DNA of 38,733 nt from Georgenia satyanarayanai. Lineage in GTDB: Bacteria > Actinomycetota > Actinomycetes > Actinomycetales > Actinomycetaceae. A program made the translations under genes and the position numbers. The stretch lies in contig NZ_VUKC01000023.1 of the NCBI RefSeq assembly GCF_009193135.1, positions 1 through 38,733 on the forward strand, in the 5' to 3' direction. Under the pieces are notes generated by a model. It saw only the letters and a program-made list of their open reading frames with translations. It did not search any database and was not told where the DNA came from. Positions 187 to 30,387 of this stretch are shown piece after piece; position 1 is the stretch's first letter, and the number at the start of each line of letters is the position of its first letter.

Positions 187-1212
187 TCAGACCGTGGCCA
201 GGGCCGCCGAGGCCGCCGGGACCCACCCCAGCGCCGGCGCGACCTCCGCTGCGAGGAGCTCCACCGACCGGAGGACCTCCGGGTGCGGCGGGTCGACGGA
301 GTGGACCTGGAAGGACAGGTGGGTCGCCCGCGCGACCACCGGGTCGGCGAGCAGGCCGGCCAGCACGGTGGCCGGGGTCCCGACGTGCGAGTCGGTCGCC
401 GCGACGAGCTCGGCGGTGGACAGGCCCGCGGCGGAGCGCCCCGTCATCCGCTCGACGAGCGGCGCGACCCGCCGTAGCCCCGACTCGGCGAGCTCGGCGG
501 CCCTCCCCTCGTCCTCGGTGACGACGACGGTGCGGGCCACGCTGATCCGGGGAGCGGCCCCGGCGGGCAGGTGCTCGAGGTAGGCGTCGACGAGCCGCTC
601 CTGCAGGGAGCCCAGGGGGAGGCCGGGCTCGTCGCCGGGACGCGGCTGGGTCCGCGAGAGCATGAGCCCGTGGCCGCGCCGTCCGGCCTCCACCGCCCAG
701 GGCTCGGAGAAGGTACCGATCCACAGCCTGCCGGCGAGCGTCCCGGCCGGCGGGTACAGCGCCCGGCCGCCCGCGACCGGCTCACCCCGCAGGGCTGCCT
801 CGAGCCGGTCGAGCTTGGCGGTGAACACCGCGTGCCGGTCGGCGAAGTCGAGGCCCGCGGCCGCGAACGCGCCCGGTGAGCCGCCCGAGGCGAGACCGAG
901 CTCCACCCGCCCCCCGCTGAGGTGGTCGAGCACGGCGGCGTCCTCCGCCACGCGCAGCGGGTCCTCGAGGGCGAGGGTGATGACGCCGGTGGTGAGCCGG
1001 ACCCGGGAGGTCACCGCTGCCGCGTGGGCGAGCAGGACGAGCGGCGAGGGCAGCCCGCCCTCGCTCCCGTCGTAGTGGTGCTGGGCGACGGCGACGGCGT
1101 CGAAGCCGGCCGCCTCGGCGGCGCGGAGCTGCTCCAGCGCGAGCCGGTAGCGCCCCGCCGGTGGGGCGTCGTCGAGCACCCGGGTGAAGAACCCGAGCTG
1201 GGGGGCGCTCAC
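187..1212 (-). CDS. Luciferase-like FMN-dependent monooxygenase (KPN_01858-type)
   Basis: This 341-residue protein has the TIM-barrel layout of the bacterial luciferase-like monooxygenase family. It shows an N-terminal LGFFTRV strand, AQHHYDGSEGG after the second helix, TTGVITLALEDPLRVAED, and the phosphate-binding-like GLASGGSPGAFAAAGLD segment. Family members use reduced FMN and O2 to oxidise a small organic substrate, and need a separate flavin reductase. None is encoded nearby. The GTG start at 1212 overlaps the stop of the upstream AhpD-like gene by 4 bases, so it is the last gene of a translationally coupled operon. Placement next to a Dpp-type transporter and two CMD-fold proteins matches what I recall as the KPN_01858 family. 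The substrate is unknown. Confidence 0.85.
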   Translation of the reverse strand: MSAPQLGFFTRVLDDAPPAGRYRLALEQLRAAEAAGFDAVAVAQHHYDGSEGGLPSPLVLLAHAAAVTSRVRLTTGVITLALEDPLRVAEDAAVLDHLSGGRVELGLASGGSPGAFAAAGLDFADRHAVFTAKLDRLEAALRGEPVAGGRALYPPAGTLAGRLWIGTFSEPWAVEAGRRGHGLMLSRTQPRPGDEPGLPLGSLQERLVDAYLEHLPAGAAPRISVARTVVVTEDEGRAAELAESGLRRVAPLVERMTGRSAAGLSTAELVAATDSHVGTPATVLAGLLADPVVARATHLSFQVHSVDPPHPEVLRSVELLAAEVAPALGWVPAASAALATV

Positions 1213-1814
1213 GAGCGCCGCCTCGCGGGAACCTCGGGCTCGCCGAGGGAGAGCATGAGCCGGTTCGCCCAGTTGAAGAAGGCGGCACCCCCGATGACGT
1301 CGAGGATCTCGTCGTCACCCAGGCCCGCCGCTCGCAGCCGCTCGACGTGCCCGGGGCCGAAGCGGACCGGCGTCGCCGTCAGCGCCTCGGCGGCGGCGAC
1401 GATCGCCTCCCACCGCTCGCCGAGCTCCGCGCCCGTGCCCTCGTCGAGCAGCCGGTCGACGTCCGCGGGACGTCCGGAGAGCTGGGCCGCCGCCCGGGCG
1501 TGCACGGACGCGCAGAACACGCAGCCGTTGACACGGGAGGCCGCCGCGGCCGCGAGCTCGCGCTCGGCGCGCGGCAGACCGCCGTCCTCGGTGTAGAAGA
1601 TGTCGTTGTCCAGGCGGGTGCGCGCCCCGAGCAGCTCGGGGTCCCGGGCGAGGAGCCGGAAGTAGGCGAAGTCCGCCCGGGTGCGCTCGACGAGGCCGGC
1701 GTAGTGGCGGTCGGTCAGCTCCTCCTTGGCGAGCGGCTCGAGCCAGGGCACCCAGCCGAGGGGCTCGCGGGTGAAGGCCTCGGGGCGGTCGAGGTCGGGG
1801 TGGTGGTGGATCAT
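1209..1814 (-). CDS. AhpD-like alkylhydroperoxidase/CMD-domain protein (Avi_7169-type)
   Basis: This 201-residue protein has the CMD/AhpD fold. The redox motif is intact: Cys98, Cys101 and His105 in NGCVFCASVH, with a Glu-rich helix (RAERELAAAA, residues 83-92) just before it, as in AhpD-type peroxidases. AhpD proteins reduce peroxides or act as thiol-disulphide partners, with the Cys pair as the active site. The ATG at 1814 overlaps the stop of the preceding gene by 4 bases, and its own stop overlaps the monooxygenase start. It sits between a second, Cys-less CMD protein and the flavin monooxygenase. It may therefore handle peroxide or a reactive product from the flavin reaction, which is inference. 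I recall this as the Avi_7169 family. Confidence 0.8.
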   Translation of the reverse strand: MIHHHPDLDRPEAFTREPLGWVPWLEPLAKEELTDRHYAGLVERTRADFAYFRLLARDPELLGARTRLDNDIFYTEDGGLPRAERELAAAAASRVNGCVFCASVHARAAAQLSGRPADVDRLLDEGTGAELGERWEAIVAAAEALTATPVRFGPGHVERLRAAGLGDDEILDVIGGAAFFNWANRLMLSLGEPEVPARRRS

Positions 1815-2446
1815 CGCGGGGCTCCCGGAGTGGCGTGGAGGACGGACAGGCCGGCGGCGGCGCGCAGCTGGTAGGCGAGGAACGCGACGAGCTGGGAGAG
1901 GGTGACGGTCGCGTCGGCCGTCCAGCCGGCACCGACGAGACGCGCGAGCGCGTCCGCTCGTGCGTCACGCGGGTGCAGGACGAGGAGCCTGGCGTGCTCG
2001 AGGGCGACGGACAGCCGCTCCCCCAGCACCTCCCGCGCGACGACCCGGTAGCCCGCGGCGGGCACGGACTCCGCGACGAGCCCCGGCTCCCGGTACGTCC
2101 CGGCCGGGCCTGGGACGGCCGCGGTCCCCGCCTCGGCCGTGAGCGTGGCCGCGAGCGCGTCCGACCCACCGGCGGCGAGCAACGCTCGTCGGTAGTGGGA
2201 CACGGAGCGCTCGTCACGGTGCAGAGCGGCGACGAACACGGCGACGGCGAGCCGGTCGAGGACGGGCAGCTCGCCGTCGTCGTCGGGGGCGAAGAGCAGC
2301 CGGTAGGCGAGCTGGGCGTTCTCCCGCGCGGAGGGCCGCAGGTCACGCAGCGTGTCGACGGCGCCGCCCGCCGGGATCCCGGCGAGCTCGCGCAGGACGT
2401 CGGCGGCGCCGGCGGGCGCTCGGTTGTGGTCGAGGACGTGGGTCAT
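1811..2446 (-). CDS. CMD-domain protein without redox cysteines (Avi_7170-type)
   Basis: This 211-residue protein pairs with the AhpD-like gene downstream. It shows a CMD-like helical pattern (LPVLDRLAVAVFVAALHRD), where the usual CxxCxxxH position reads VFVAALH, so the histidine is kept but both cysteines are gone. It contains no cysteine at all, so it cannot be an AhpD-type peroxidase on its own. It may be a structural partner of the Cys-containing protein or an enzyme of the decarboxylase/isomerase type; both are inference. Its start overlaps the ATPase stop by 4 bases (2443-2446) and its end overlaps the next start. The operon position matches the Avi_7170 CMD family as I recall it. Confidence 0.7.
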   Translation of the reverse strand: MTHVLDHNRAPAGAADVLRELAGIPAGGAVDTLRDLRPSARENAQLAYRLLFAPDDDGELPVLDRLAVAVFVAALHRDERSVSHYRRALLAAGGSDALAATLTAEAGTAAVPGPAGTYREPGLVAESVPAAGYRVVAREVLGERLSVALEHARLLVLHPRDARADALARLVGAGWTADATVTLSQLVAFLAYQLRAAAGLSVLHATPGAPR

Positions 2447-4056
2447 GACTCTCTCCTGGTGGCGTGGGCCGCGGGGACCGCGTCGAGCAGCTCGCGGGTG
2501 TACTCGTGCGAGGGGGCGTGGAAGATCTCGGCGGTGGTGCCGCTCTCCACCACCCGGCCGCGCTGCATGACGGTGACGGTGTCGGAGACCTGGCGGACGA
2601 CGCCGAGGTCGTGGGAGATGAACAGGTAGGTGAGGCCGCGCTCCCCTTGGAGCTCGGCGAGCAGGTCGAGGATCTGGGCCTGCACGCTGACGTCGAGCGC
2701 CGAGACCGGCTCGTCGAGGACGACGACGCCGGGGTCGAGGACCAGCGCCCGGGCGATCGCCACCCGCTGACGCTGCCCGCCGCTGAGCTCCCGCGGCCGC
2801 CGCCCGTGCAGCTGCGGGCCGAGGGCGACCCGCTCGAGCAGCGCTCCCGCCCTCGCCCGCCGTTCACGCCGGTCACCGAGGCGGAAGTTGCGCAGCGGCT
2901 CGGTGACGATGTCGAGGACGCTCATGCGGGGGTCGAGGGACCCGAAGGGGTTCTGGTAGACGAGCTGGACCTGCCGGCGCCACTGGCGGCGCGCCTCGCC
3001 GCGCAGCGAGGCGACGTCGGTGCCGTGGACGAGCGCCGTCCCCGTCGTCGCCGTCTCCAGGCCGAGCAGGATGCGCGCCGTCGTCGACTTGCCCGAGCCG
3101 GACTCCCCGACGACGGCGTGCGTCGTCCCGGCGGGCACGGTGAGGCTCACGTCGTCCACGGCACGCACGTGCTGCCCGCCGCGGCCGGTGAAGTCCTTGC
3201 TCACGGTGCGCAGCTCGATCGCCGGGACGGCGCCCGCTGCGGGGACCGGCGGGAGGGGCCGCAGCGGGGCCGGGTTGAGCGCCGGGGCGTCACGCACGAG
3301 CCGCCGGGTGTAGTCGCTGCGCGGCGCACCGACCACCTCGCTCGCGGCCCCCGCGTCGACCACCCGTCCGCCCTGCATGACGAGGATCCGGTCGGCACGT
3401 TCGGCGGCCGCGGCGAGGTCGTGGGTGACGAGGAGGATCCCGGTGCCGTCCTGTGCGCGCAGCTCGTCGAGCAGGTCGAGGATGCGTCGCTGGACGGTGA
3501 CGTCCAGGGCGCTCGTCGGCTCGTCGGCGATGAGGAGGTCGGGCTGCAGCGCCAGCGCCGCCGCGATGAGCACCCGCTGGCGCATGCCGCCGGAGAGCTC
3601 GTGCGGGTAGGCGCCGGCCACCCGGGCGCCGGGCAGGCCCACGCGCTCGAGCAGCTCGGCCACCCGGGCGCGGACCCCCTTCTCGTCCCTCTCCCCGTGC
3701 ACCCGCAGGGTCTCGGCGACCTGCCAGCCCACGGTCCGCAGCGGGTCGAGAGAGCTGCCCGGGTCCTGCGGGACGAGGCCGATGCGCCGTCCCCGCACCT
3801 CCTGCAGCCGCCTGTCCGACCAGCCCCGGATGTCGGTGCCGTGCAGGAGGATCTGCCCGGAGGTGACGGTCGCGGCCGGCGCGAGGAGCCCGAGCACGGC
3901 GTGGGCGGTCGTCGTCTTGCCCGAGCCGGTCTCCCCCACCACCGCGACCACCTCGCCCGGCGCGACGGTGAGGCTCACGCCGTCGACGGCGGTGTGGTGC
4001 CCGCCGCGGCGGGTGCGGTAGGTGACCGACAGGTCGCGCACGTCGAGGAGGCTCAT
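2443..4056 (-). CDS. Dipeptide/nickel-type ABC transporter, double ATP-binding subunit
   Basis: This 537-residue protein carries two full nucleotide-binding domains in one chain, like fused DppD-DppF. The first has Walker A GETGSGKTTT, signature LSGGMRQRV and Walker B LLIADEPTSALD. The second has GESGSGKSTT, LSGGQRQRV and VVVLDEPVSALD. Each domain ends with an Opp/Dpp-type tail (DYTRRLV, EYTRELL). The reading frame is open further upstream, but the ATG at 4056 gives the canonical MSLLDVRDLSVTYRT start and the same 4-base overlap (4053-4056) with the permease as at every other junction, so I chose it. It should power import of the solute captured by the lipoprotein encoded at the operon's start. 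Confidence 0.92.
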   Translation of the reverse strand: MSLLDVRDLSVTYRTRRGGHHTAVDGVSLTVAPGEVVAVVGETGSGKTTTAHAVLGLLAPAATVTSGQILLHGTDIRGWSDRRLQEVRGRRIGLVPQDPGSSLDPLRTVGWQVAETLRVHGERDEKGVRARVAELLERVGLPGARVAGAYPHELSGGMRQRVLIAAALALQPDLLIADEPTSALDVTVQRRILDLLDELRAQDGTGILLVTHDLAAAAERADRILVMQGGRVVDAGAASEVVGAPRSDYTRRLVRDAPALNPAPLRPLPPVPAAGAVPAIELRTVSKDFTGRGGQHVRAVDDVSLTVPAGTTHAVVGESGSGKSTTARILLGLETATTGTALVHGTDVASLRGEARRQWRRQVQLVYQNPFGSLDPRMSVLDIVTEPLRNFRLGDRRERRARAGALLERVALGPQLHGRRPRELSGGQRQRVAIARALVLDPGVVVLDEPVSALDVSVQAQILDLLAELQGERGLTYLFISHDLGVVRQVSDTVTVMQRGRVVESGTTAEIFHAPSHEYTRELLDAVPAAHATRRES

Positions 4057-4928
4057 CGCTCGCTCCCCAGGGAGCGGCTGACCCGGTTGGCCGAGAGGAC
4101 GACGGCGACGATGACGAGACCGGGCAGGGTGGTGACCCACCAGGCGGCGGCGAGCAGGTCGCGGCCCTGGGCGATGATCATGCCCCACTCCGGGTCCGGC
4201 GGCGTCACGCCGTAGCCGAGGAAGCCGAGGGTGGACAGCGCGAGGATCGCGGTGCCCAGCTGCATCGCCGCGAGCGCGACGACCGGCCGCAGGGAGTTGC
4301 GCAGCACGTGCCGCCACAGCACCGACAGGACGCGCCCGCCGCTGCCGTAGGCGGCCTCGACGTACTCGGTGGCCCGCACCTGGACCACCTCGGCCCGCAC
4401 GAGCCGCGCGAAGCCCGCCACCGCGCCGACGCCCACGGCGAGCGCCGCGTTGACGGTCCCCGGCCCGAGGAGGACGACGACGGTGAGCGCGAGCAGGAGC
4501 CCCGGGATGGCGAGCAGGACGTCGACGACCCGCATGAGGACCTCCTCGACCGCCCCGCCGACGGTGCCGGCCACGACCCCGAGCACCGTGCCGACGGTGA
4601 GCCCGACGCTCACGGCGACGAGGGCGCCGGCGAGGGACTCCGAGGCGCCGTGGACCACACGGGAGAAGAGGTCACGCCCGTTGGCGTCCGTCCCGAAGAG
4701 GTGCTCCCCGCCCGGCGCCTGCAGCCCGGGCCCGACGCTCGAGTAGGCGTCGAAGGGCGCGAGGACCCCGGGCAGGACCGCCCAGAGCAGCACGGTGGCG
4801 ATGACGGCCCAGGCGAGCACGAGGCCGACGGGGACCGTGCGACGCCGGCGTCCCGCGGGGACTGGTGCGGTGGTGACCGTGACGGGGGCCACGGGCGTGA
4901 CCGGCTCTCGCGTGGTCGTCGCGGTCAT
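4053..4928 (-). CDS. Dpp/Opp-type ABC transporter permease (DppC-like)
   Basis: This 291-residue membrane protein has the DppC pattern. A cytoplasmic N-terminus of about 35 residues leads into a first membrane helix, then HLFGTDANGRDLFSRVVHG, the signature of the family. Several hydrophobic segments follow, with an EAA-loop (YVEAAYGSGGRVLSVLWRH) that contacts the ATPase. It forms the inner-membrane channel together with the DppB-like partner encoded just upstream. The ATG at 4928 overlaps the stop of that partner by 4 bases. A much longer open frame continues upstream but runs antisense-like through the neighbouring genes and is not used. Confidence 0.92.
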   Translation of the reverse strand: MTATTTREPVTPVAPVTVTTAPVPAGRRRRTVPVGLVLAWAVIATVLLWAVLPGVLAPFDAYSSVGPGLQAPGGEHLFGTDANGRDLFSRVVHGASESLAGALVAVSVGLTVGTVLGVVAGTVGGAVEEVLMRVVDVLLAIPGLLLALTVVVLLGPGTVNAALAVGVGAVAGFARLVRAEVVQVRATEYVEAAYGSGGRVLSVLWRHVLRNSLRPVVALAAMQLGTAILALSTLGFLGYGVTPPDPEWGMIIAQGRDLLAAAWWVTTLPGLVIVAVVLSANRVSRSLGSER

Positions 4929-5932
4929 GGCCGGGCTCCTTCCAGCGGGCGCGCCACGACGGGCTCGACGACGACGGCGGATGGTGGCGCCGTCGTCGTC
5001 CGTGCCCGGCGCAGGCGCGGGTCGAGGACGGGGTAGAGGAGGTCGACGACGAGGTTGACCGTGACGAAGGCGAGGGCCGCCACGAGGACGATCGCCTGGA
5101 TCACCGGCAGGTCCTGCGCCGCCACCGCGAGGTTGGTGAGGCGGCCCAGCCCGTCGCGGCCGAAGACGGACTCGGTGACGACCGAGCCGGCGATGAGCTC
5201 GGCGACGAGGAGACCGCTGATCGTCAGCACCGGCAGCAGGGCGTTGCGGGCGGTGTGCCGGCTCAGCGTCCACCAGCGCGAGGCCCCCTTCGCCTCGACG
5301 ACGTGGACGAAGGGCCGGGTGGCGACGTCGTCGAGGGTGCGCAGGACGATCTGGGCGAGCGGCGCGCTCACCGGGACGGCGAGGGTGAGGACGGGCAGCA
5401 CGAGCTCCTGCCAGCCCTCGGCCCCGATGACCGGCACCCAGCCGAGCCGGAAGGAGAAGACCTGGAGCAGGACGATGCCGAGCCAGAACGCCGGGACGGA
5501 CACGAACAGCGAGGGGATCGCGGTGATCGCGTTGTGCAGCCACGGGCTGCGGGCGTAGCTCGCCGCGAGCGCGAGCACGACGGCGAGAGCAGCGGCCACG
5601 ACGAAGGCGAGCGAGGCGAGCTGGAGCGTGGCCGGCAGGGCGGCCGAGATGCGGTCGAGGACGGGGGTCGCCGTCTCGACCGAGTAGCCCAGGTCCCCCT
5701 GCAGCGTCCCCGCCAGGGCGTGGACGTACTGGAGGACGAGCGGGTCGTCGACCCGGTAGTACTCGCGGATGGCGGCGATCTGGTCCGCGCTCAGGCCGAG
5801 CTCGGGGTTCTCGAACTTGATGAGGATCCCGTCCCCGGGCAGCGCACCGAGGAGGAGGAAGGACAGGGTGTAGGCGGCCCACAGGACGACGAGGGCCTGG
5901 CCCACCCGCCCCGCGACGTAGCGGGCGCTCAC
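4925..5932 (-). CDS. Dpp/Opp-type ABC transporter permease (DppB-like)
   Basis: This 335-residue protein matches DppB/OppB. It has an N-terminal membrane helix (ALVVLWAAYTLSFLLLGALPGD), then the periplasmic/extracellular segment with RVDDPLVLQYVHALAGTLQGDLG, then five more hydrophobic helices. The EAA-loop VVEAKGASRWWTLSRHTARN is followed by TESVFGRDGLGRL near the C-terminus, both typical of the family. The start is GTG at 5932, giving MSARYVAGRVGQAL and a 4-base overlap with the solute-binding protein stop. It should form the translocation pore with the DppC-like permease encoded next. Confidence 0.92.
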   Translation of the reverse strand: MSARYVAGRVGQALVVLWAAYTLSFLLLGALPGDGILIKFENPELGLSADQIAAIREYYRVDDPLVLQYVHALAGTLQGDLGYSVETATPVLDRISAALPATLQLASLAFVVAAALAVVLALAASYARSPWLHNAITAIPSLFVSVPAFWLGIVLLQVFSFRLGWVPVIGAEGWQELVLPVLTLAVPVSAPLAQIVLRTLDDVATRPFVHVVEAKGASRWWTLSRHTARNALLPVLTISGLLVAELIAGSVVTESVFGRDGLGRLTNLAVAAQDLPVIQAIVLVAALAFVTVNLVVDLLYPVLDPRLRRARTTTAPPSAVVVEPVVARPLEGARP

Positions 5933-7560
5933 CGCTCCTCCAGCCACGTGTCGTACAGGCGCAGACGCCCGACCGGCTCCCAGCCCAGGCCGTGGACGTG
6001 CGGGCCGGCGGCGTAGGTCTGGGGCATGTCGTACAGCGGGATGGTGAGCGCGTTGTCGACGAGGTACTCCTGGACCTCGGCGGCCTTGGCGTAGCGCTCC
6101 TCCGTGCCGGGCAGGGAGGTGATCTCCTCGAGGAGGCCGTCGAGGGCGTCGTCGGTGGAGACGAGGTAGTCCCGCTGGCTGCTGTGGAAGGCGCTGTACA
6201 GGACGTCGGGGTCCACACGACCGACGTGGCTGATGAGGACGCCGATGTCGGCCGGGTCCTGCTGGCGCTGGACCGCTGTCGCGGGGTCCGGCAGCTCGAT
6301 GTGGAGCTTCGCGCCGACCGCCTCCCACTGCTGGGCCACGAGCTCTGCCGTCTCCTGGCCGAGGGGGAAGACGGCGGGGACGATCGTCGTGAGCTCCAGC
6401 CGCTGGCCGTCCTTGGTGCGGATGCCGTCCGGGCCGCGCTCCCAGCCGGCCTCGTCGAGCAGCCGGTTGGCCTCCTCGGGGTCCGCCGCGAGCCTGTCGG
6501 ACAGGTCGGTGTATCCGGTGGCACCGGAGCTGAGCGGTGAGGTGGCCACCGGGTAGTTGTCGGTGAAGAGGGTGTCGACGATCGCACCGGTGTCGGTGGC
6601 CTTGAGCAGCGCCTGCCGCACGGGCAGCTCGGTGAGGACCGGGTTGCCGGGGCGCAGCGCGATCTGGGGGCTGACGCCGTTGGTCTGCGGGGCGTACAGC
6701 TGGTAGCCGGCCGCCTCGATCGTCGGCTCGTCGTAGGCCTGCACCGAGCGCACGGCGTCGGCCTGGCCGGAGGTCAGGGCGCCGATGCGCACGGAGTCCT
6801 CGGGGGTGACGACGATGTGGATCTCGTCGAGGTAGGCGCGCCCCTGGTGCTCCAGGTGCGGGGGCGCCCAGTCGTAGTCCTCCCGTGCGGTGAGCGTGTA
6901 CTCCTGCTCAGGGACGACCTCGGTGACGGTGAACGGCCCGGTCGCGACGACGTTCTCGAGCTGGCACTGCTCCTCGTAGGGCAGCTCGTAGGTCGAGGGG
7001 CCGACGACCGCGGCGCCGACGACGGAGGTCGCCTGGAGGAAGCCGGGGACGGGTGCGTCGAACTGGAAGGCCACGGTGTGGTCGTCGCGGACCTCGGAGC
7101 CGGCGTAGTTCGAGACGAACTCCTGGCTCGCCAGCCCGAGCTCCTCGTCGCCAAGACCCAGGTGGTCGAAGTTCGCGGCCACGTGCTCGGCGGTCAGCGG
7201 TGTGCCGTCCGAGAAGGTGACGTCCTCACGCAGGTGGAAGACGTACTCGGTGGCGTCGTCGGACACCTCCCAGGACTCGGCGAGCCACGGGTGGATCTCG
7301 CGGGTCTCGGGGTCCTGGAAGGTGAGCTTGTCGGCGATCTGGTTGAGGACGGTGGCGACCGGGTAGTAGCCGGAGCCGCCCGCGTAGAAGCACGTGGGGA
7401 ACTGGTACTCGAGGAAGGTGAGGGTCCCGCCCTGGCGGGGGGCGCCGTCGTCGGCGGCTGCCTCGTTCGTCGGCCCGGGGGTGCCGCTACAGGCGGCGAG
7501 GACCAGGGTCGCGGCGGCAGCGGTGGCTGCGGCGAGCGTGCGGCGATGGGAGATGCTCAT
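5929..7560 (-). CDS. ABC transporter substrate-binding lipoprotein (KPN_01854-type, SBP family 5)
   Basis: This 543-residue protein begins with a lipoprotein signal peptide. A basic n-region and an Ala-rich h-region are followed by the lipobox LAAC with Cys24 as the lipidation site. The rest follows the peptide/nickel/opine solute-binding family 5: GGTLTFLEYQF at the mature N-terminus, LAESWEVSDDATEYVFHLRE, VTFSDGTPLTAEHV, and a C-terminal region rich in aromatic residues. It should be anchored outside the membrane and deliver substrate to the two permeases. It is the first gene of the seven-gene operon, with a GAGAGGA ribosome-binding site. The context with an FMN monooxygenase and two CMD proteins fits what I recall as the KPN_01854 family. 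The ligand is unknown. Confidence 0.9.
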   Translation of the reverse strand: MSISHRRTLAAATAAAATLVLAACSGTPGPTNEAAADDGAPRQGGTLTFLEYQFPTCFYAGGSGYYPVATVLNQIADKLTFQDPETREIHPWLAESWEVSDDATEYVFHLREDVTFSDGTPLTAEHVAANFDHLGLGDEELGLASQEFVSNYAGSEVRDDHTVAFQFDAPVPGFLQATSVVGAAVVGPSTYELPYEEQCQLENVVATGPFTVTEVVPEQEYTLTAREDYDWAPPHLEHQGRAYLDEIHIVVTPEDSVRIGALTSGQADAVRSVQAYDEPTIEAAGYQLYAPQTNGVSPQIALRPGNPVLTELPVRQALLKATDTGAIVDTLFTDNYPVATSPLSSGATGYTDLSDRLAADPEEANRLLDEAGWERGPDGIRTKDGQRLELTTIVPAVFPLGQETAELVAQQWEAVGAKLHIELPDPATAVQRQQDPADIGVLISHVGRVDPDVLYSAFHSSQRDYLVSTDDALDGLLEEITSLPGTEERYAKAAEVQEYLVDNALTIPLYDMPQTYAAGPHVHGLGWEPVGRLRLYDTWLEER

Positions 7561-7580
7561 CGGGGCGGTCCTCTCGGGCG

Positions 7581-7612
7581 ATGGTCGAGCGTTCGGTTGA
7601 ACGCTTGACCAT
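7581..7612. promoter_or_regulatory. 32-base palindromic operator upstream of the transporter-monooxygenase operon
   Basis: The left arm ATGGTCgAGCGTTC and right arm GAACGCTtGACCAT are reverse complements except for one base, separated by four central bases (13 of 16 positions pair). It lies 20 bases upstream of the ATG of the substrate-binding protein. This size and symmetry suit a dimeric TetR-, GntR- or LacI-type repressor. No such regulator is encoded in the window. Confidence 0.65.
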
Positions 7613-23707: not shown

Positions 23708-26700
23708 GTGCTGCACCTGCACCGGTCCGAGCGCGCCGACGCGCTCGTCGCGCCCCTCGCGGCGCTGCTCGCCGACGCCCCCGCGGACCCGTTCACCCCT
23801 GACGTCGTCGCCGTCCCCACCCGCGGGGTGGAGCGCTGGCTCGCCCAGCGGCTGTCCCACCACCTCGGCGCCGGCCCCGACGGTGAACCGGGGATCTGCG
23901 CGAACGTCGACTTCGGCTCCCCCGCCCGTCTCGTCACCGGTGTCCTCGCCGGCCTGCCCGGTGCCCCGGAGGAGGACCCGTGGGCGCCCGAGCTGCTCAC
24001 CTGGCCGCTCCTCGAGGTCATCGACGCAGCGGCCGCCGAGCCGTGGCTCGCGCCCCTGGGCCGCTACCTCGGCGCCGGCGCGGCCGAGGACCACCGCCAC
24101 GGACGCCGCCTCGGCGCGGCCCGTCACCTCGCGCGCCTCTACACCTCCTACGCCGCGCAGCGCCCGGACATGGTGCGTGCCTGGGCGCGGGGACACGACG
24201 ACGACGGCGCGGGCGGCCACGTGCCCGCGGACCTCGCCTGGCAGGTGGAGCTGTGGCGCCGGCTGCGCGCCCGCGTCGGTGAGCCCGGGCCGGCCGAGCG
24301 CCTGGAGGAGGCGCTGGCCGCCGTCGTCGACCGCCCCGGCGCCGTCGACCTGCCCCAGCGACTCAGCGTCTTCGGCCCCACCCGGCTGCCCGAGGACCAG
24401 CTGCGCGTGCTGCGCGCCCTCGCCGCCCACCGCGAGGTCCACGTGTGGCTGCCCCACCCCTCCCCCGCGCTGTGGGCGAGGGTCGCCGGCGCGGGCGAGC
24501 CCGCCTCCCGGCGGCGCCGCGAGCAGCGCGTCCGTGCCCACCACCCGCTGCTCGCCTCCACCGCCCGCGACGCCACCGAGCTGGAGACCCGCCTGCTCGG
24601 GGTCGGCGTCACCGACACCCACCACCCCGCAGCGCGCCCCGGCGGCACGCTCCTCGCCGCCCTCCAGGAGCGCCTCGCCACCGACTCCCCCGACGCGCCA
24701 CCGCACCGGGTCACCGCGGAGGACACCAGCGTCCAGGTGCACGCCTGCCACGGGCTGGCCCGGCAGGTGGAGGTGCTACGGGAGGTGCTCGCCGGGCTCT
24801 TCGCCGCCGACCCGAGCCTCGAGCCGCGCGACGTCATCGTCATGTGCCCCGACGTCGAGGCGGTCGCGCCGCTCGTCACCGCGAGCTTCGGGCTCGCCCC
24901 GGAGGGGGTCACCGACGTCCACCCCGGGCACACGATGCGGGTACGGCTCGCCGACCGCGCGCCCGGGCGCACCAACCCGGTCCTCGGGCTGCTCGCCACG
25001 CTCCTCGGGCTCGCCGACGGCCGGGTCACCGCCTCGGAGGTGCTCGACCTCGCGGCGACCGAGCCGGTGCGCCGCCGCTTCCAGCTCACCGACGACGACC
25101 TCGACCGCGTGCGCGAGTGGTCCGCCACCGCCGGCGTGCGGTGGGGCGAGGACGCCCGGCGGCGCGCCCGCTTCGAGCTGCCCGGCCTGCTCCAGGGCAC
25201 CTGGCACGTCGCCCTGGACCGGCTCCTCCTCGGGGTGGCCATGGCCGAGGAGGACCATCGCTACGTCGGCCACGCGCTACCGCTGGACGACGTCGACAGC
25301 ACCGACATCGACCTCGCCGGACGGCTGGCCGAGCTCGTCGACCGGCTCACCGGTCTCCTCGCCGAGCTCGACGGCACGCGCCCGCTCACCCACTGGATCG
25401 ACACCCTCGACCACGCCGTCACCCTCCTCGCGGACACCGCGCCCACCGACTCGTGGCAGGTGGTCTCCGCCCGGCGCGTGCTCTCCGAGGAACGCGCCCG
25501 GTCCACCGACGCCCCCCTGCGGCTCCCGGACGTGCGGGCCCTGCTCGCCGACCGGCTCGCCGGGCGGCCCACCCGCGCCGGCTTCCGCACCGGAGCCCTC
25601 ACCGTGTGCTCCCTCGAGCCCATGCGCGCCGTGCCCCACCGGGTCGTGTGCCTCCTCGGCGTCGACGACGGCGCCTTCCCCCGCGGGACCCGCCAGGACG
25701 GCGACGACCTCCTCCTGCGCGAGCCCTGCGTCGGAGAGCGCGACCGCCGCAGCGAGGACCGCCAGCTCTTCCTCGACGCCGTCACCGCCGCCCAGGACCA
25801 CCTCGTCCTCCTCTACTCCGGCGCGCACGAGCGCACCGGCGCCGCGCGGCCACCCGCGGTCCCCGTCGGGGAGCTCCTCGACGCCCTCGAGGCCGCCGCC
25901 ACGGCACCCTCCGGCACCGTCCGGGAGCACGTGCTGCGCCACCACCCGCTCCAGGTCGTCGACGAGCGCAACTTCACCCCCGGGGCCCTCGGCCGGCCGG
26001 GCGAGCCGTTCAGCTTCGACGCCGTCGCCCACCGCGCCGCCCTCGCCGGGCGCGGGGAGCGCGTCGCGCGGGTGCCCTTCCTCACCGAGCCGCTGCCGCC
26101 GCTCGAGCCGCCCGCCACGCTCGAGCTCGCCGACCTCGTCTCGATGCTCGAGCACCCGGTCAAGTACTTCCTGCGCCACCGCCTGGGCCTGTCGGTGGCC
26201 GGGGAGAACGCCGAGGTCACCGACCGCCTCCCGCTCACCCTCGCCCCCCTCGACGGGTGGGCCATCGGCGAACGCTTCCTCCAGGCGCGGCTGGCCGGAG
26301 TCCCCGACCAGCAGGTCATGAACGCCGAGTGGCGCCGCGGCGTCACCCCGCCCAGGGAGCTGGGCCGCACCGCCCTGCTCGACGTCGGCAGCCGGGTCGT
26401 GCCCATCGCGAGCGCCGCGGCGGCCGAGCGGGCGCAGCCCGCCGAGACGGTCGACGTCGTCGTGCCCCTCCCCTCCGGCACCACGCTCACCGGCACGGTC
26501 CCCGGCGTCCACGGCGGCACCGTCCTGCGTGCCACGTACTCCCGCCTGGCGCCCAAGCACCGCCTGCGCGCGTGGGTGCAGCTGCTCGCTCTCGTCGCCG
26601 CCCACCCCGAGCGGCCCTGGCGCACCGCCACGGTCGCCCGGCCGGACCACCGCCGGCCGGGTGCCTACGTCGCGCGGCTGCACCCACCCGCCCCGCAGGA

Positions 26701-27049
26701 GGCGGTCACGCTCCTCGACCAGCTCGTCCACCTCCACGCCCTGGCCCTGCGCGAGCCGCTGCCCGTCCCGGTGCCCGTCGCCTGCACCTACGCCACCTCC
26801 CGCGCCGGCGGGGACTCCGCGGACATGGCCCTGGTCAACGCCCGGCGGGCCTGGGACGGTGACGAGTTCCTGCGCGCGGACGAGCACCACGTCATCTGCT
26901 GGGGCACCGGCGCGCGCCTCGAGGACATCCTCGGCACCCCGACCGAGACCGAGCGCGCCTGGTACCCGCAGGACCCGAGCCGCCTCGGCGTGCTCGCCCG
27001 CCGGGTCTGGGAGCCGCTCCTCGCCCACGAGCAGCTGGACAAGCCGTGA
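23708..27049 (+). CDS. recC: Exodeoxyribonuclease V subunit gamma (RecC)
   Basis: RecC holds the RecBCD complex together and reads Chi. The 1113-residue protein begins at GTG 23708 with LHLHRSERADALVAPLAALL and FTPDVVAVPTRGVERWLAQRL, the classic RecC N-terminus, and AQRLSHHLGAG. It lacks a working Walker A motif, as expected for this degenerate helicase. Other landmarks: VFGPTRLPEDQLRVLRALAA, VQVHACHGLARQVEVLREVL, RAVPHRVVCLLGVDDGAFPR and LEHPVKYFLRHRLGL. A GGAGGGAGG site precedes it, and TAGGCT at 23673-23678 is a possible -10 box. It is the first of three overlapping genes. Confidence 0.95.
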   Translation: MLHLHRSERADALVAPLAALLADAPADPFTPDVVAVPTRGVERWLAQRLSHHLGAGPDGEPGICANVDFGSPARLVTGVLAGLPGAPEEDPWAPELLTWPLLEVIDAAAAEPWLAPLGRYLGAGAAEDHRHGRRLGAARHLARLYTSYAAQRPDMVRAWARGHDDDGAGGHVPADLAWQVELWRRLRARVGEPGPAERLEEALAAVVDRPGAVDLPQRLSVFGPTRLPEDQLRVLRALAAHREVHVWLPHPSPALWARVAGAGEPASRRRREQRVRAHHPLLASTARDATELETRLLGVGVTDTHHPAARPGGTLLAALQERLATDSPDAPPHRVTAEDTSVQVHACHGLARQVEVLREVLAGLFAADPSLEPRDVIVMCPDVEAVAPLVTASFGLAPEGVTDVHPGHTMRVRLADRAPGRTNPVLGLLATLLGLADGRVTASEVLDLAATEPVRRRFQLTDDDLDRVREWSATAGVRWGEDARRRARFELPGLLQGTWHVALDRLLLGVAMAEEDHRYVGHALPLDDVDSTDIDLAGRLAELVDRLTGLLAELDGTRPLTHWIDTLDHAVTLLADTAPTDSWQVVSARRVLSEERARSTDAPLRLPDVRALLADRLAGRPTRAGFRTGALTVCSLEPMRAVPHRVVCLLGVDDGAFPRGTRQDGDDLLLREPCVGERDRRSEDRQLFLDAVTAAQDHLVLLYSGAHERTGAARPPAVPVGELLDALEAAATAPSGTVREHVLRHHPLQVVDERNFTPGALGRPGEPFSFDAVAHRAALAGRGERVARVPFLTEPLPPLEPPATLELADLVSMLEHPVKYFLRHRLGLSVAGENAEVTDRLPLTLAPLDGWAIGERFLQARLAGVPDQQVMNAEWRRGVTPPRELGRTALLDVGSRVVPIASAAAAERAQPAETVDVVVPLPSGTTLTGTVPGVHGGTVLRATYSRLAPKHRLRAWVQLLALVAAHPERPWRTATVARPDHRRPGAYVARLHPPAPQEAVTLLDQLVHLHALALREPLPVPVPVACTYATSRAGGDSADMALVNARRAWDGDEFLRADEHHVICWGTGARLEDILGTPTETERAWYPQDPSRLGVLARRVWEPLLAHEQLDKP

Positions 27050-30000
27050 CCACCACCGAGCTGGGGACCGACCTGCCCGTCTTCGACGTGTGCGGCCCGC
27101 TGCCCGCCGGCACCACCGTCCTGGAGGCCAGCGCCGGTACCGGCAAGACCTTCACCATCGCCGCCCTCGCCACCCGCTACGTCGCCGAGCAGGGCGTCGA
27201 GCTGGCCGACCTCCTCCTCGTCACCTTCGGCCGCGCGGCCACCTCCGAGCTGCGGGACCGTGTCCGTGCCCGGCTGCTCGCCACCGAGCGGGCGCTGCGG
27301 GACCCGGAGGCCGCCCGCGCGAGCCGGGACGAGGTCGTGGCGCACCTCGCCGCCGCCGACGACGCCGAGGTCGCCGCCCGGCGTCTGCGGCTCACCCGCG
27401 CCCTGTCCCAGCTCGACGCCGCGACCATCACGACGACGCACGGCTTCTGCCAGCAGATGCTTACCTCGCTCGGGGTGGCCGCCGACGTCGACCCCGACCA
27501 CACCTTCGTCCCCGACGTCGCGGACCTGCGCGAGGAGGTCCTCGACGACGTCTACCTGCGCCACTACGCCGGCTCCCGCGCGCCCGCGCTCACCCCGGAC
27601 GAGGCGCGGACGATCGGCAAGGAGGCGGTGAGCGACCACCAGGCCGCCCTGCGCCCCACCGACGCGCCACCCGACTCCCTGCCCGGGCACCGCCACGCCC
27701 TCGCGCAGGCGGTGCGCGCGGAGGTCCACCACCGCAAGCGCGACCGCCGCCTGCTCGACTACGACGACCTCCTCACCCTCCTGCGGGACGCCCTCACCCA
27801 CCCGGTCCACGGTCCGGCCGCGGCGGCGCGGGTCCGCGAGCGCTACGCCGTCGTCCTCGTCGACGAGTTCCAGGACACCGACCCCGTCCAGTGGGAGGTC
27901 CTGCGCACCGCTTTCCACGGGCACCGCACCCTCGTCCTCATCGGTGACCCGAAGCAGGCGATCTACGCCTTCCGCGGCGGCGACGTCGTCACCTACCTCC
28001 ACGCCCGCGGTCTCGCGACGAGCACGGCCACCCTCGGGCGCAACTGGCGCAGCGACGCCGCACTGCTCACCGGGCTCGAGGCGCTCCTCGGCGGCGCCGC
28101 GCTCGGTGACGAGGCGATCGTCGTGCGTCCCGTCGCCGCGGCGCACACCGGGGAGCGGCGGCTGCGGGGCGGGGCGCCGGTGCGGCTGCGGCAGGTCACC
28201 CGGGAGCCCTTCCGGCTGGCCGGGACGAAGAACCCGCGGGTGGGTGACGTGCGCCGGCTCGTGGCCGACGACGTCGCCGCGGACGTCGTCGCCCAGCTCA
28301 CCGGCACCCGGCTGCGGGAGGGTGAGGCCTGGCGCGAGCTGCACCCCGGCGACGTCGCGGTCCTCGCCCGCCGCAACGCCGACGCCGACGCCGTGCGGGA
28401 CGCGCTCGCCGCCGCCGGTGTGCCCGCCGTCGTCTCCGGGCTCTTCAGCGTCTTCGCCACCGACGCCGCCCGGCACTGGCTCACCCTCCTCACCGCGCTC
28501 GAGCAGCCCGCGCACGGGGGCCGCGCCGCGGCACTGGCCCTCACCCCCTTCCTCGGCTGGGACGCCACCCGCCTCGGCACGGCGGGGGACGCCGCTCGCG
28601 AGGAGCTGTCCGACACCGTCCGCGGCTGGAGCCGGCTCCTCACGGAACGGGGGGTCGCGGCGCTCGTCGAGGCCGTCACCACCGCGGGCGTCGCCGAGCG
28701 GCTCATGGCCACCGCCGACGGCGAGCGTGTCCTCACCGACGTCCGCCACGTCGGGGAGGCCCTGCACCTGGCCGCGGTCGAGGAGGACCTCGGGGTCGCG
28801 GCCCTGACGGACTGGCTGCGCACCCGGATCGCCGAGGCGGACCGCGACTACGCCGAGGAGCGCAGCCGCCGCCTGGAGACCGACGCCGACGCCGTCCAGG
28901 TCGTCACCGTCCACTCCTCCAAGGGCCTGGAGTTCCCGGTCGTCTACGTGCCCTTCGGCTGGGACCGCTACGAGTCGCGCACCCCGCCGGTCCTCCGCTA
29001 CCACGACGACGCCGGCGCCCGGCTGCTCCACGTCGGCGGCCCGGAGGACCCCGGCTACGACGCCGCCCGCGACCGGCACCTCGCCGAGGAGCGCGGCGAG
29101 GACCTGCGCCTGCTCTACGTCGCCCTCACGCGGGCGGCGGCGCAGGTCGTCGTCCACTGGGCGCCGTCGTCCAACTCCCCCGCCGGCCCGCTCACCCGCC
29201 TCCTCCTGGGCGGGCACGCACCGGGCGAGGAGCCGCCGCCGCGCGCGCCCGTGCGGGGCGACGACGCCGTCACCGCGGCGCTGTCCGCCGTCGTCGCCCG
29301 CTCCGGGGGCACGGTGGCCCTCGAGCGCGCCACCACCCGCCCCCAGCCGGTCACCTGGCAGCCACCCGTGCCGCAGCGGCCGGACCTGTCCGTCGCCCGG
29401 CTGGGCCGCGGCCTCGACCACACATGGCGGCGCACCTCCTACACCGGTCTCACCGCCGCGGCGCACCACGAGCCGGTGGGCAGCGAGCCGGAGGCCACGG
29501 GCGTGGAGGACGAGACGGACCTCGTCGTCACGCGCCTCACCGGCGCCGACCCCGCCCGCGCGCTGCCCTCGCCCATGGCGGACCTGCCCGGCGGGACCGG
29601 GTTCGGCACCGTCGTCCACGAGGTCCTCGAGCAGGTCGACACCGCCGCGCCGGACCTGGCGGCCGAGCTGCGCGAGCGCTGCCGGGAGGGGGGCACGGCG
29701 CGGGTGCCGGGGCTCGACCCGGAGGCGCTCGCCGCCGCGCTGGGGAAGGTGGTCGCCACCCCGCTCGGCCCGCTCGCCGGGGGCGCCACCCTGGCCGGCT
29801 TCGCGCCGGCGGACCGGCTCGCCGAGATGGAGTTCGAGCTGCCGCTCGCGGGCGGGGACTCCCCCGCCGCGAGCGCCGCCACGCTCGTCGACCTCGCCCG
29901 CCTCCTGCGCCGCCACCTGCCCGCCGACGACGTCTTCGCGCCCTACGCCGACCAGCTCGCCGCCCTCGGCCCCGAGCGCCTGCACGGCTACCTGACCGGC

Positions 30001-30387
30001 AGCATCGACGCCGTCCTGCGGCACGGGTCCGGGGACGCGACGCGCTATCTCGTCGTCGACTACAAGACGAACCGGCTCGCGCCGCCCGAGGAACCGCTCA
30101 CCCTGTGGCACTACCGCCCCGAGGCCGTCGCCGAGGCGATGATGCGCTCGCACTACCCGCTGCAGCTGCTGCTCTACCTCGCCGCCCTGCACCGCTACCT
30201 GCGCTGGCGCCACCGCGGCTACGACCCCGAGCGGCACCTCGGCGGGGGGCTCTACCTCTTCGTGCGGGGGATGGCCGGTCCCGGCACGCCCGCCGCGGAC
30301 GGCACGCCCCACGGGGTCATGGCCTGGCGGCCACCCGCCGCGCTCGTCGTCGCGCTGTCCGCGCTCCTCGAGGGGAGGACCCCATGA
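27046..30387 (+). CDS. recB: Exodeoxyribonuclease V subunit beta (RecB helicase-nuclease)
   Basis: RecB is the 3'-5' helicase and the only nuclease of RecBCD. This 1113-residue protein starts with GTG overlapping the recC stop by 4 bases. Helicase motifs are complete: EASAGTGKTFTIAALATRYV (about residues 26-45), THGFCQQ, LVDEFQDTDPVQWEVL (motif II), GDPKQAIYAFRGGD, TVHSSKGLEFPVVYVPF and LLYVALTRAA. The C-terminal nuclease has GTVVHEVLEQ (about 858), GSIDAVL (about 985) and VVDYKTN (about 1003), the His-Asp-DxK set of active RecB nucleases. By these motifs the enzyme is fully active. Its length, slightly below 1180, is normal for actinobacteria. Confidence 0.96.
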   Translation: MTTTELGTDLPVFDVCGPLPAGTTVLEASAGTGKTFTIAALATRYVAEQGVELADLLLVTFGRAATSELRDRVRARLLATERALRDPEAARASRDEVVAHLAAADDAEVAARRLRLTRALSQLDAATITTTHGFCQQMLTSLGVAADVDPDHTFVPDVADLREEVLDDVYLRHYAGSRAPALTPDEARTIGKEAVSDHQAALRPTDAPPDSLPGHRHALAQAVRAEVHHRKRDRRLLDYDDLLTLLRDALTHPVHGPAAAARVRERYAVVLVDEFQDTDPVQWEVLRTAFHGHRTLVLIGDPKQAIYAFRGGDVVTYLHARGLATSTATLGRNWRSDAALLTGLEALLGGAALGDEAIVVRPVAAAHTGERRLRGGAPVRLRQVTREPFRLAGTKNPRVGDVRRLVADDVAADVVAQLTGTRLREGEAWRELHPGDVAVLARRNADADAVRDALAAAGVPAVVSGLFSVFATDAARHWLTLLTALEQPAHGGRAAALALTPFLGWDATRLGTAGDAAREELSDTVRGWSRLLTERGVAALVEAVTTAGVAERLMATADGERVLTDVRHVGEALHLAAVEEDLGVAALTDWLRTRIAEADRDYAEERSRRLETDADAVQVVTVHSSKGLEFPVVYVPFGWDRYESRTPPVLRYHDDAGARLLHVGGPEDPGYDAARDRHLAEERGEDLRLLYVALTRAAAQVVVHWAPSSNSPAGPLTRLLLGGHAPGEEPPPRAPVRGDDAVTAALSAVVARSGGTVALERATTRPQPVTWQPPVPQRPDLSVARLGRGLDHTWRRTSYTGLTAAAHHEPVGSEPEATGVEDETDLVVTRLTGADPARALPSPMADLPGGTGFGTVVHEVLEQVDTAAPDLAAELRERCREGGTARVPGLDPEALAAALGKVVATPLGPLAGGATLAGFAPADRLAEMEFELPLAGGDSPAASAATLVDLARLLRRHLPADDVFAPYADQLAALGPERLHGYLTGSIDAVLRHGSGDATRYLVVDYKTNRLAPPEEPLTLWHYRPEAVAEAMMRSHYPLQLLLYLAALHRYLRWRHRGYDPERHLGGGLYLFVRGMAGPGTPAADGTPHGVMAWRPPAALVVALSALLEGRTP

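Follow-up and report, generated by a model that had tools for sequence, protein, structure and literature searches.

A conserved seven-gene operon of Georgenia satyanarayanai as a probable sulfur-starvation cassette for the import and oxidation of an organosulfur compound

An operon of seven genes on a contig of Georgenia satyanarayanai (NCBI RefSeq assembly GCF_009193135.1, contig NZ_VUKC01000023.1; the whole stretch of 38,733 nucleotides is called the window here) is probably a sulfur-starvation cassette, in which an organosulfur compound would be imported, its carbon-sulfur (C-S) bond would be cleaved by a luciferase-like flavin monooxygenase (LLM) accompanied by a pair of CMD proteins, and a palindrome ahead of the genes would serve as the switch. 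That sulfur scavenging is the role of the cassette we consider very likely. The evidence comprises gene content, family membership, conservation, a depletion of cysteine and methionine (Cys and Met), fusions of the CMD proteins and some neighbours with sulfur-related functions. The cassette is found in the Actinomycetota and in the Alpha-, Beta- and Gammaproteobacteria. In the window it occupies positions 187-7560 of the minus strand as seven translated open reading frames (ORFs), preceded by the palindrome:

5929-7560, minus strand: SBP, substrate-binding lipoprotein of solute-binding family 5 (ATG start, 543 amino acids; TIGR04028, PF00496 (SBP_bac_5); Cys+Met 0.74%)
4925-5932, minus strand: PermB, DppB/NikB-type permease (GTG, 335 amino acids; PF00528 and PF19300; Cys+Met 0.00%)
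4053-4928, minus strand: PermC, DppC/NikC-type permease (ATG, 291 amino acids; PF00528; Cys+Met 1.03%)
2443-4056, minus strand: fused double ATPase of the Dpp/Opp class (ATG, 537 amino acids; two ABC_tran stretches and oligo_HPY; Cys+Met 0.75%)
1811-2446, minus strand: CMD1, AhpD-like helical protein without Cys (ATG, 211 amino acids; TIGR04029)
1209-1814, minus strand: CMD2, AhpD-type protein (ATG, 201 amino acids; TIGR04030; Pfam CMD)
187-1212, minus strand: LLM, luciferase-like flavin monooxygenase (GTG, 341 amino acids; TIGR04027, Bac_luciferase)
7583-7610, no strand assigned: imperfect palindrome of 28 bases upstream of the operon, its core (7588-7605) a perfect 7+4+7 repeat

Gene content and conservation

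A preliminary description of this DNA, made from the letters alone, had proposed a seven-gene set joined by six 4-base ATGA or GTGA overlaps, and the translated ORFs bear this out at all six junctions (GTGA, ATGA, ATGA, ATGA, ATGA, GTGA). It had also named four families (KPN_01854, KPN_01858, Avi_7169 and Avi_7170), and in a search with the NCBIfam hidden Markov models all four proteins scored above the curated cut-offs: SBP with 591 bits against TIGR04028 (cut-off 468.5), CMD1 with 166.2 against TIGR04029 (100.75), CMD2 with 276.9 against TIGR04030 (233.15) and LLM with 429 against TIGR04027 (412.9), the narrowest margin of the four. The Pfam domains are SBP_bac_5, BPD_transp_1 in both permeases, two ABC_tran, Bac_luciferase and CMD, the last of these in CMD2 only; CMD1 matches no Pfam family at E 0.001. 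The nikD and nikE models also score above cut-off on the fused ATPase, probably because its two domains add up, and a nickel role suggested by these hits was discounted.

At least 588 places in species genomes at large encode a relative of LLM, of which the best 80 were kept, a choice that favours close relatives of the window LLM; with six plasmid records these gave 86 loci. The complete set of SBP, both permeases, ATPase, LLM, CMD1 (separate or fused) and CMD2 is present in 69 of the 86, while five are short of one or more parts, mostly through contig ends. The remaining 12 carry LLM and CMD2 with no such SBP or permease within reach, at least two of them lying at contig ends; the LLM/CMD trio thus occurs without this importer in some genomes, and the neighbours sampled for loci of this type (ten proteins from six loci), among them MetQ-like, LivF-like and MATE-like proteins, include no common importer. 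Among related organisms, LLM scores above cut-off in seven of 296 genomes of the same class and in 10 of 151 genomes of the same family, the window genome being included in both counts.

The survey of gene order, proposed earlier as a check, confirmed that the same genes co-occur in many genomes. The strictness of the order, which had been offered as an argument for a functional unit, does not hold in the form given, as it is the window that is exceptional: the usual order in the family is ATPase-LLM-CMD1-CMD2, with LLM first in every one of the 83 other loci containing both LLM and CMD2, and the order ATPase-CMD1-CMD2-LLM was seen only in the window and three congeners. These three have all seven genes, identically ordered and 84-96% identical at the protein level, which argues that the set did not arise by chance; a fourth congener was read in part only, and one congener has no match. 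LLM comes first in four of the five other genomes of the same bacterial family that have it, namely the four whose loci were read. On these sequence comparisons the operon is real and conserved, and its gene order here is a rearrangement at the level of the genus. The layout with six overlaps is likewise not a family trait, since a gap of 52-65 bases separates SBP from PermB in five annotated rhizobial and other plasmids.

Residue composition and sulfur-gene neighbours

Cys and Met account for 16 of the 2452 residues of the window cassette (0.65%), against 2.09% in the pooled 82 other ORFs of the genome (taken from stretches around monooxygenase and Dpp-type paralogues and from the window, leaving out the Dpp-type locus L183 with ORFs at 0.61-2.66%), and PermB and CMD1 contain neither residue beyond the first position. 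A similar depletion was evident across 49 genomes, each protein being drawn from 43 to 49 of them, with median Cys+Met of 0.37% for SBP, 0.95% for PermB, 0.83% for PermC, 0.55% for the ATPase, 0.00% for CMD1, 1.61% for CMD2 and 0.61% for LLM; the background median was 2.68% (403 ORFs, each of 250 amino acids or more, from 40 stretches of 30 of those genomes). CMD2 has the highest median because it needs its two cysteines. Pooled per locus, the values range from 0.38 to 1.87% with a median of 0.65% in the 44 loci that yield five or more cassette proteins, and no other of the 20 residues is depleted as strongly as Cys (log2 -3.0) and Met (log2 -1.65), Tyr following well behind. DppB-type paralogues were fetched from 30 genomes, one from each, and 28 could be paired, two genomes having no cassette PermB; the cassette PermB lies below its same-genome paralogue in 27 of the 28 (Wilcoxon 7e-9), the exception being Mycetocola (G323).

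A low Cys/Met content is a tendency of sulfur-starvation proteins and, according to the available parts of the two papers, has served as a criterion for them in Gordonia (PMC7661421) and Rhodococcus (PMC8557817). The cassette proteins show the low Cys+Met content of such sulfur-sparing proteins, and their depletion therefore points to a role in sulfur starvation. Among the E. coli controls, TauA, TauD, SsuE, SsuA and SsuD contain 0-1.05% Cys+Met, and 16 Dpp, Opp, Nik and Gsi proteins 2.0-7.7%. The depletion might instead reflect resistance to oxidants released by the flavin enzyme, as the cassette would form a flavin hydroperoxide and carries AhpD-type proteins. It extends, however, to the extracytoplasmic SBP, the membrane permeases and the adjacent rhodaneses described below, and TauA, TauD, SsuE, SsuA and SsuD are depleted too, so that we regard this explanation as extremely improbable.

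Sulfur-specific markers were detected in 12 of 92 loci (L023, L026, L033, L043, L045, L051, L061, L068, L076, L088, L091 and L114). In Paenarthrobacter (L051), genes for a TIGR03860 monooxygenase and a two-domain rhodanese overlap by 4 bases and end 59 bases before the SBP ORF. The same pair lies near the cassette in L033, L068 and L061, and a TIGR03860-type monooxygenase alone in L056, L078, L087 and L089. These neighbouring monooxygenases and rhodaneses are themselves poor in Cys and Met (0.2-1.3%). A search of the window genome for TIGR03860 gave no match at E 1e-20. The Micrococcales loci with such a monooxygenase beside the cassette, four of them with the rhodanese, can be seen as an extended form of the cassette.

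NF008557-type rhodaneses lie within 10 kb in four of 49 genomes (0.32 expected), and TIGR03860 enzymes, among the 150 matches listed (weaker ones being absent from observed and expected counts alike), number five within 10 kb (0.52 expected) and eight within 15 kb in seven genomes (0.79 expected). The Poisson statistics are based on rounded genome sizes and count related genomes as independent. In 40 control stretches (800 kb) there were no relatives of the rhodanese probe or the TIGR03860 subfamily probe, against four and eight in 970 kb of flanks; several neighbour probes were taken from cassette loci, and the foreground counts include their self-matches.

Sulfur genes also accompany the cassette outside the Micrococcales. 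It lies amid TauA, SfnB-like and SsuD-like genes in Allorhizobium ampelinum S4, the source of the Avi names, and amid SsuA, TauA and an LLM in Rhizobium tumorigenes; in Variovorax it stands beside a CysB-type regulator, with a four-rhodanese protein a few kb further. SsuA is near it in Aureimonas, and SsuD- and SsuA-like genes in Rhizobium sp. RU36D. Two Microvirga loci have MsuE-like FMN reductases near the cassette, just below cut-off, and one of them is also 4 kb from SsuA. The marker count leaves out a weak TauD relative (27%) in L099, and genes read as rut genes beside the cassette in eight Rahnella loci were discounted as a neighbourhood common to a single genus.

Several further proteins were encountered in these regions. 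The four-rhodanese protein of Variovorax paradoxus CP063167 (L026, 20346-22598) has 750 residues with one Cys and, besides the first residue, one Met; it precedes ABC permease genes and may belong to another sulfur-scavenging unit. Second family-5 binding proteins with 0-0.2% Cys+Met, possibly further organosulfur importers, are encoded near the cassette in Allorhizobium ampelinum (L023, 4218-5846) and Rhizobium tumorigenes (L114, 18942-20531). In rhizobia and Enterobacterales a Cys/Met-poor VOC protein follows the cassette (L073, 12266-13126; L114, 14366-15115; L116, 14262-15233; L038, 7568-8452); it is a Glyoxalase_3 protein (PF13468) in the three that were scanned (L073, L114 and L038) and a possible eighth member.

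An alternative function for such a gene set would be the uptake of a metal chelate or metallophore followed by oxidative breakdown, as in the monooxygenase systems for nitrilotriacetate (NTA) and EDTA, with LLM cleaving a C-N bond. The models and structures nearest to SBP (whose own model has a mean pLDDT of 84.6) include NikA, CntA and AgaA, the neighbouring monooxygenases belong to the NtaA/DmoA family, and the available text of a proteome study names KPN_01858 as higher under iron limitation. Against this, SBP scores 143.5 bits on NikA (cut-off 393) and 102.6 bits on CntA (cut-off 800), the Nik proteins of E. coli are not poor in Cys and Met (2.1-6.3%), and sulfur genes are found among the neighbours (rhodanese, SsuA/TauA and CysB-type). 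TauC, which appears in the same iron-limitation list, is a sulfur-starvation protein. In the available text of that study, of iron-limited K. pneumoniae, both KPN_01858 and TauC were higher, TauC being placed under metal transport by the authors (PMC7194016). The KPN_01858/TauC pair is thus as compatible with sulfur stress as with iron stress, and chelate breakdown seems to us improbable.

A number of observations weigh against a sulfur-starvation role and should temper its interpretation. The sulfonate permeases and ATPases of E. coli are just mildly poor in Cys and Met (TauB, TauC, SsuB and SsuC, 1.9-2.4%), 8.5% of the 82 other ORFs of the window genome also fall below 0.76%, and of three other Dpp-type systems in this genome two are richer and one (C2:70000-83000, locus L183) lies at 0.7-1.0%; because the latter is itself low, depletion alone is not proof. 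With the markers used, 80 of the 92 loci have no sulfur-specific marker, and neither the window nor its congeners have one among the scanned neighbours. The rhodanese loci all belong to the Micrococcales and may represent one event, the enrichment of SsuA is weak (two within 10 kb, 0.24 expected; two within 15 kb, 0.37 expected), and two other monooxygenase probes and TauD found three and one matches in the 800 kb of controls and equally three and one in the 970 kb of flanks. No Rfam RNA element reached the gathering score in seven cassette loci. Finally, the sole activity published for the LLM family, in the available text, is the oxidation of poly(acrylic acid) with NADPH, not FMNH2 (PMC11354265).

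The flavin monooxygenase, the CMD pair and a proposed mechanism

This activity also corrects the view of the preliminary description that the set is known only by family names, as a member of the LLM family, PCX02514 of Klebsiella sp. PCX, has a crystal structure (PDB 8K74, the one found for the family; E 7.7e-99 to the window LLM) together with its claimed activity, and KPN_01858 is named in the iron-limitation proteome. In the available text, PCX02514 is described as a poly(acrylic acid) oxidase or monooxygenase whose binding was followed by isothermal titration calorimetry (ITC) and whose reaction was reported with NADPH, FMN and FMNH2 giving no support; that text provides no sulfur or operon context (PMC11354265). 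The cassette could accordingly be proposed to break down a sulfur-free acid polymer or oligomer as a carbon source, given the reported cleavage and the ITC binding. Four of the five residues proposed for PCX02514 are identical in the window LLM (R11, R126, S186 and R187, by alignment count), but His253 falls on Glu254; moreover, poly(acrylic acid) is synthetic, the reported flavin independence is odd for this fold, and the depletion of Cys and Met would be left unexplained. Poly(acrylic acid) is unlikely to be the natural substrate, and polymer catabolism as the role of the operon is very improbable.

The window LLM, which contains no Cys and two Met besides the first residue, scores 22.9 bits on the SfnG model (cut-off 382.95) and 26.2 bits on TIGR03860 (NtaA/DmoA; cut-off 279.7), below cut-off in both cases, and SsuD (TIGR03565, cut-off 518.2) does not appear among the 25 best-scoring of its 27 families, which extend down to 22.9 bits.

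CMD2 contains the AhpD catalytic motif, E86-x11-C98-x2-C101-x3-H105, with C98 and C101 kept in 81 of 82 aligned members and E86 and H105 in at least 95%. CMD1 of the window has no Cys and thus no such motif, and in none of the columns of a 61-member alignment does Cys exceed 30%. The AlphaFold2 model of CMD1 (mean pLDDT 89.2) finds its nearest solved folds in the AhpD-like 3c1l, 2oyo and 6k40 (probability 1.00; Foldseek E about 0.01, none at or below 0.001). CMD1 and CMD2 are fused in all four proteins tested for fusion, three from Enterobacterales and one from Ruania, which suggests one working assembly.

The preliminary description had joined uptake and oxidation in one pathway, which fits these data best; it gave no substrate class, and residue composition and some neighbours now point to sulfur. 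A class of substrate, cleavage of the C-S bond, a function for the CMD proteins and the regulation of the operon we infer as follows. The lipoprotein and the Dpp-type importer would take in a peptide- or amino-acid-like organosulfur compound, such as a thioether, a sulfoxide or sulfone, or a sulfonate. LLM, with FMNH2 supplied by a reductase encoded elsewhere, would oxygenate this compound next to its sulfur atom; the C-S bond would then break and release usable sulfur, as with SsuD, MsuD and SfnG. For an organosulfur importer coupled to a C-S cleaving LLM we see fairly good odds. CMD2, as an AhpD-type dithiol protein, may remove peroxide or reduce an oxidised (peroxo or sulfenate) intermediate, and CMD1, its Cys-free paralogue, may be the structural partner in a mixed CMD1/CMD2 assembly; we give this division of labour an even chance.

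It could also be that sulfur is scavenged while LLM just activates the compound by N- or C-oxidation, the sulfur then being freed either by the CMD pair or by a sulfurtransferase or lyase acting downstream. The full dithiol motif retained in CMD2, the CMD genes that stay with LLM in the 12 loci described above as having no SBP or permease, and the rhodanese or Glyoxalase_3 genes that adjoin the cassette in some lineages are compatible with this variant. SsuD, MsuD and SfnG, however, cleave C-S bonds themselves (for MsuD as given in an abstract), and the rhodanese probe matched four of 80 flanks; we therefore think this variant unlikely, if the least so of the competing explanations. More tentatively, with clearly poorer odds than C-S cleavage by LLM as such, the cassette might constitute a further general organosulfur route, in which a peptide- or opine-like organosulfur compound enters through a Dpp-class importer and passes to a three-protein oxidative desulfurase. 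The CMD pair would then take part in the reaction itself, possibly by reducing a peroxo or sulfenate intermediate or with its dithiol as acceptor of the sulfur, and would do more than scavenge peroxide.

The palindrome ahead of the operon is probably bound by a regulator that switches the cassette. All 28 bases of the palindrome are identical in the window and three congeners, and 7583-7610 is likely, from its sequence, to be an operator. The core (7588-7605) matches exactly at one place in the genome; a wider palindrome regulon was rejected, with two further places at 2 mismatches and one place for the reversed-pattern control, and of the repeats noted ahead of SBP in other genera, two at most for each locus, none was a similar perfect repeat.

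The window is the entire contig (C15) of a 3.44 Mb genome, with LLM as the leftmost cassette gene. To the right of the operon lie a CAP-domain protein, a DUF72 protein and others without evident link (ten proteins scanned). Further on (23708-30387) are two long adjoining plus-strand ORFs of 1113 amino acids each, the first RecC-like.

In the open-access literature we found no paper tying these four families to sulfur. The cassette is not named in the available parts of a chromate RNA-seq study of Klebsiella (PMC8195247), and those of PMC4501297, PMC12581299 and PMC6687942 contain nothing on it.

Comparison with known systems

Four families that NCBI lists as 'hypothetical equivalogs' gain a probable physiological role open to a simple test. 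As the carriers are soil, plant-associated and enterobacterial organisms, the cassette may act on an organosulfur compound widespread in soil or plants and so far missing from the list of bacterial sulfur sources. The interpretation of 8K74 as a poly(acrylic acid) oxidase is reopened, and residue composition offers a practical route to the function of orphan operons.

The SsuEADCB and TauABCD systems of E. coli combine an importer and an oxygenase made under sulfate starvation, and have Cys/Met-poor binding proteins and oxygenases like those of the cassette. Their importers, SsuABC and TauABC, belong to another class of ATP-binding cassette (ABC) transporter than the cassette importer, and the cassette differs further in having no flavin mononucleotide (FMN) reductase and two added AhpD-fold proteins. 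The NtaA/DmoA/DszA-type LLMs and the EDTA/NTA operons likewise join an FMN monooxygenase to uptake genes. PCX02514 belongs to the same LLM family as the window protein. Of the CMD pair, CMD2 resembles AhpD and the peroxidase-related proteins (6k40, 3c1l and 2oyo) in sequence and in its E-x11-CxxC-x3-H motif, and CMD1 is predicted to have a similar fold, but without cysteines; unlike those proteins, the pair is tied to an LLM and fused in some genomes. An importer joined to an FMNH2 monooxygenase for sulfur, as in Ssu, is a known kind of system, of which the cassette is a distinct variant by its importer class, its monooxygenase family and its AhpD pair.

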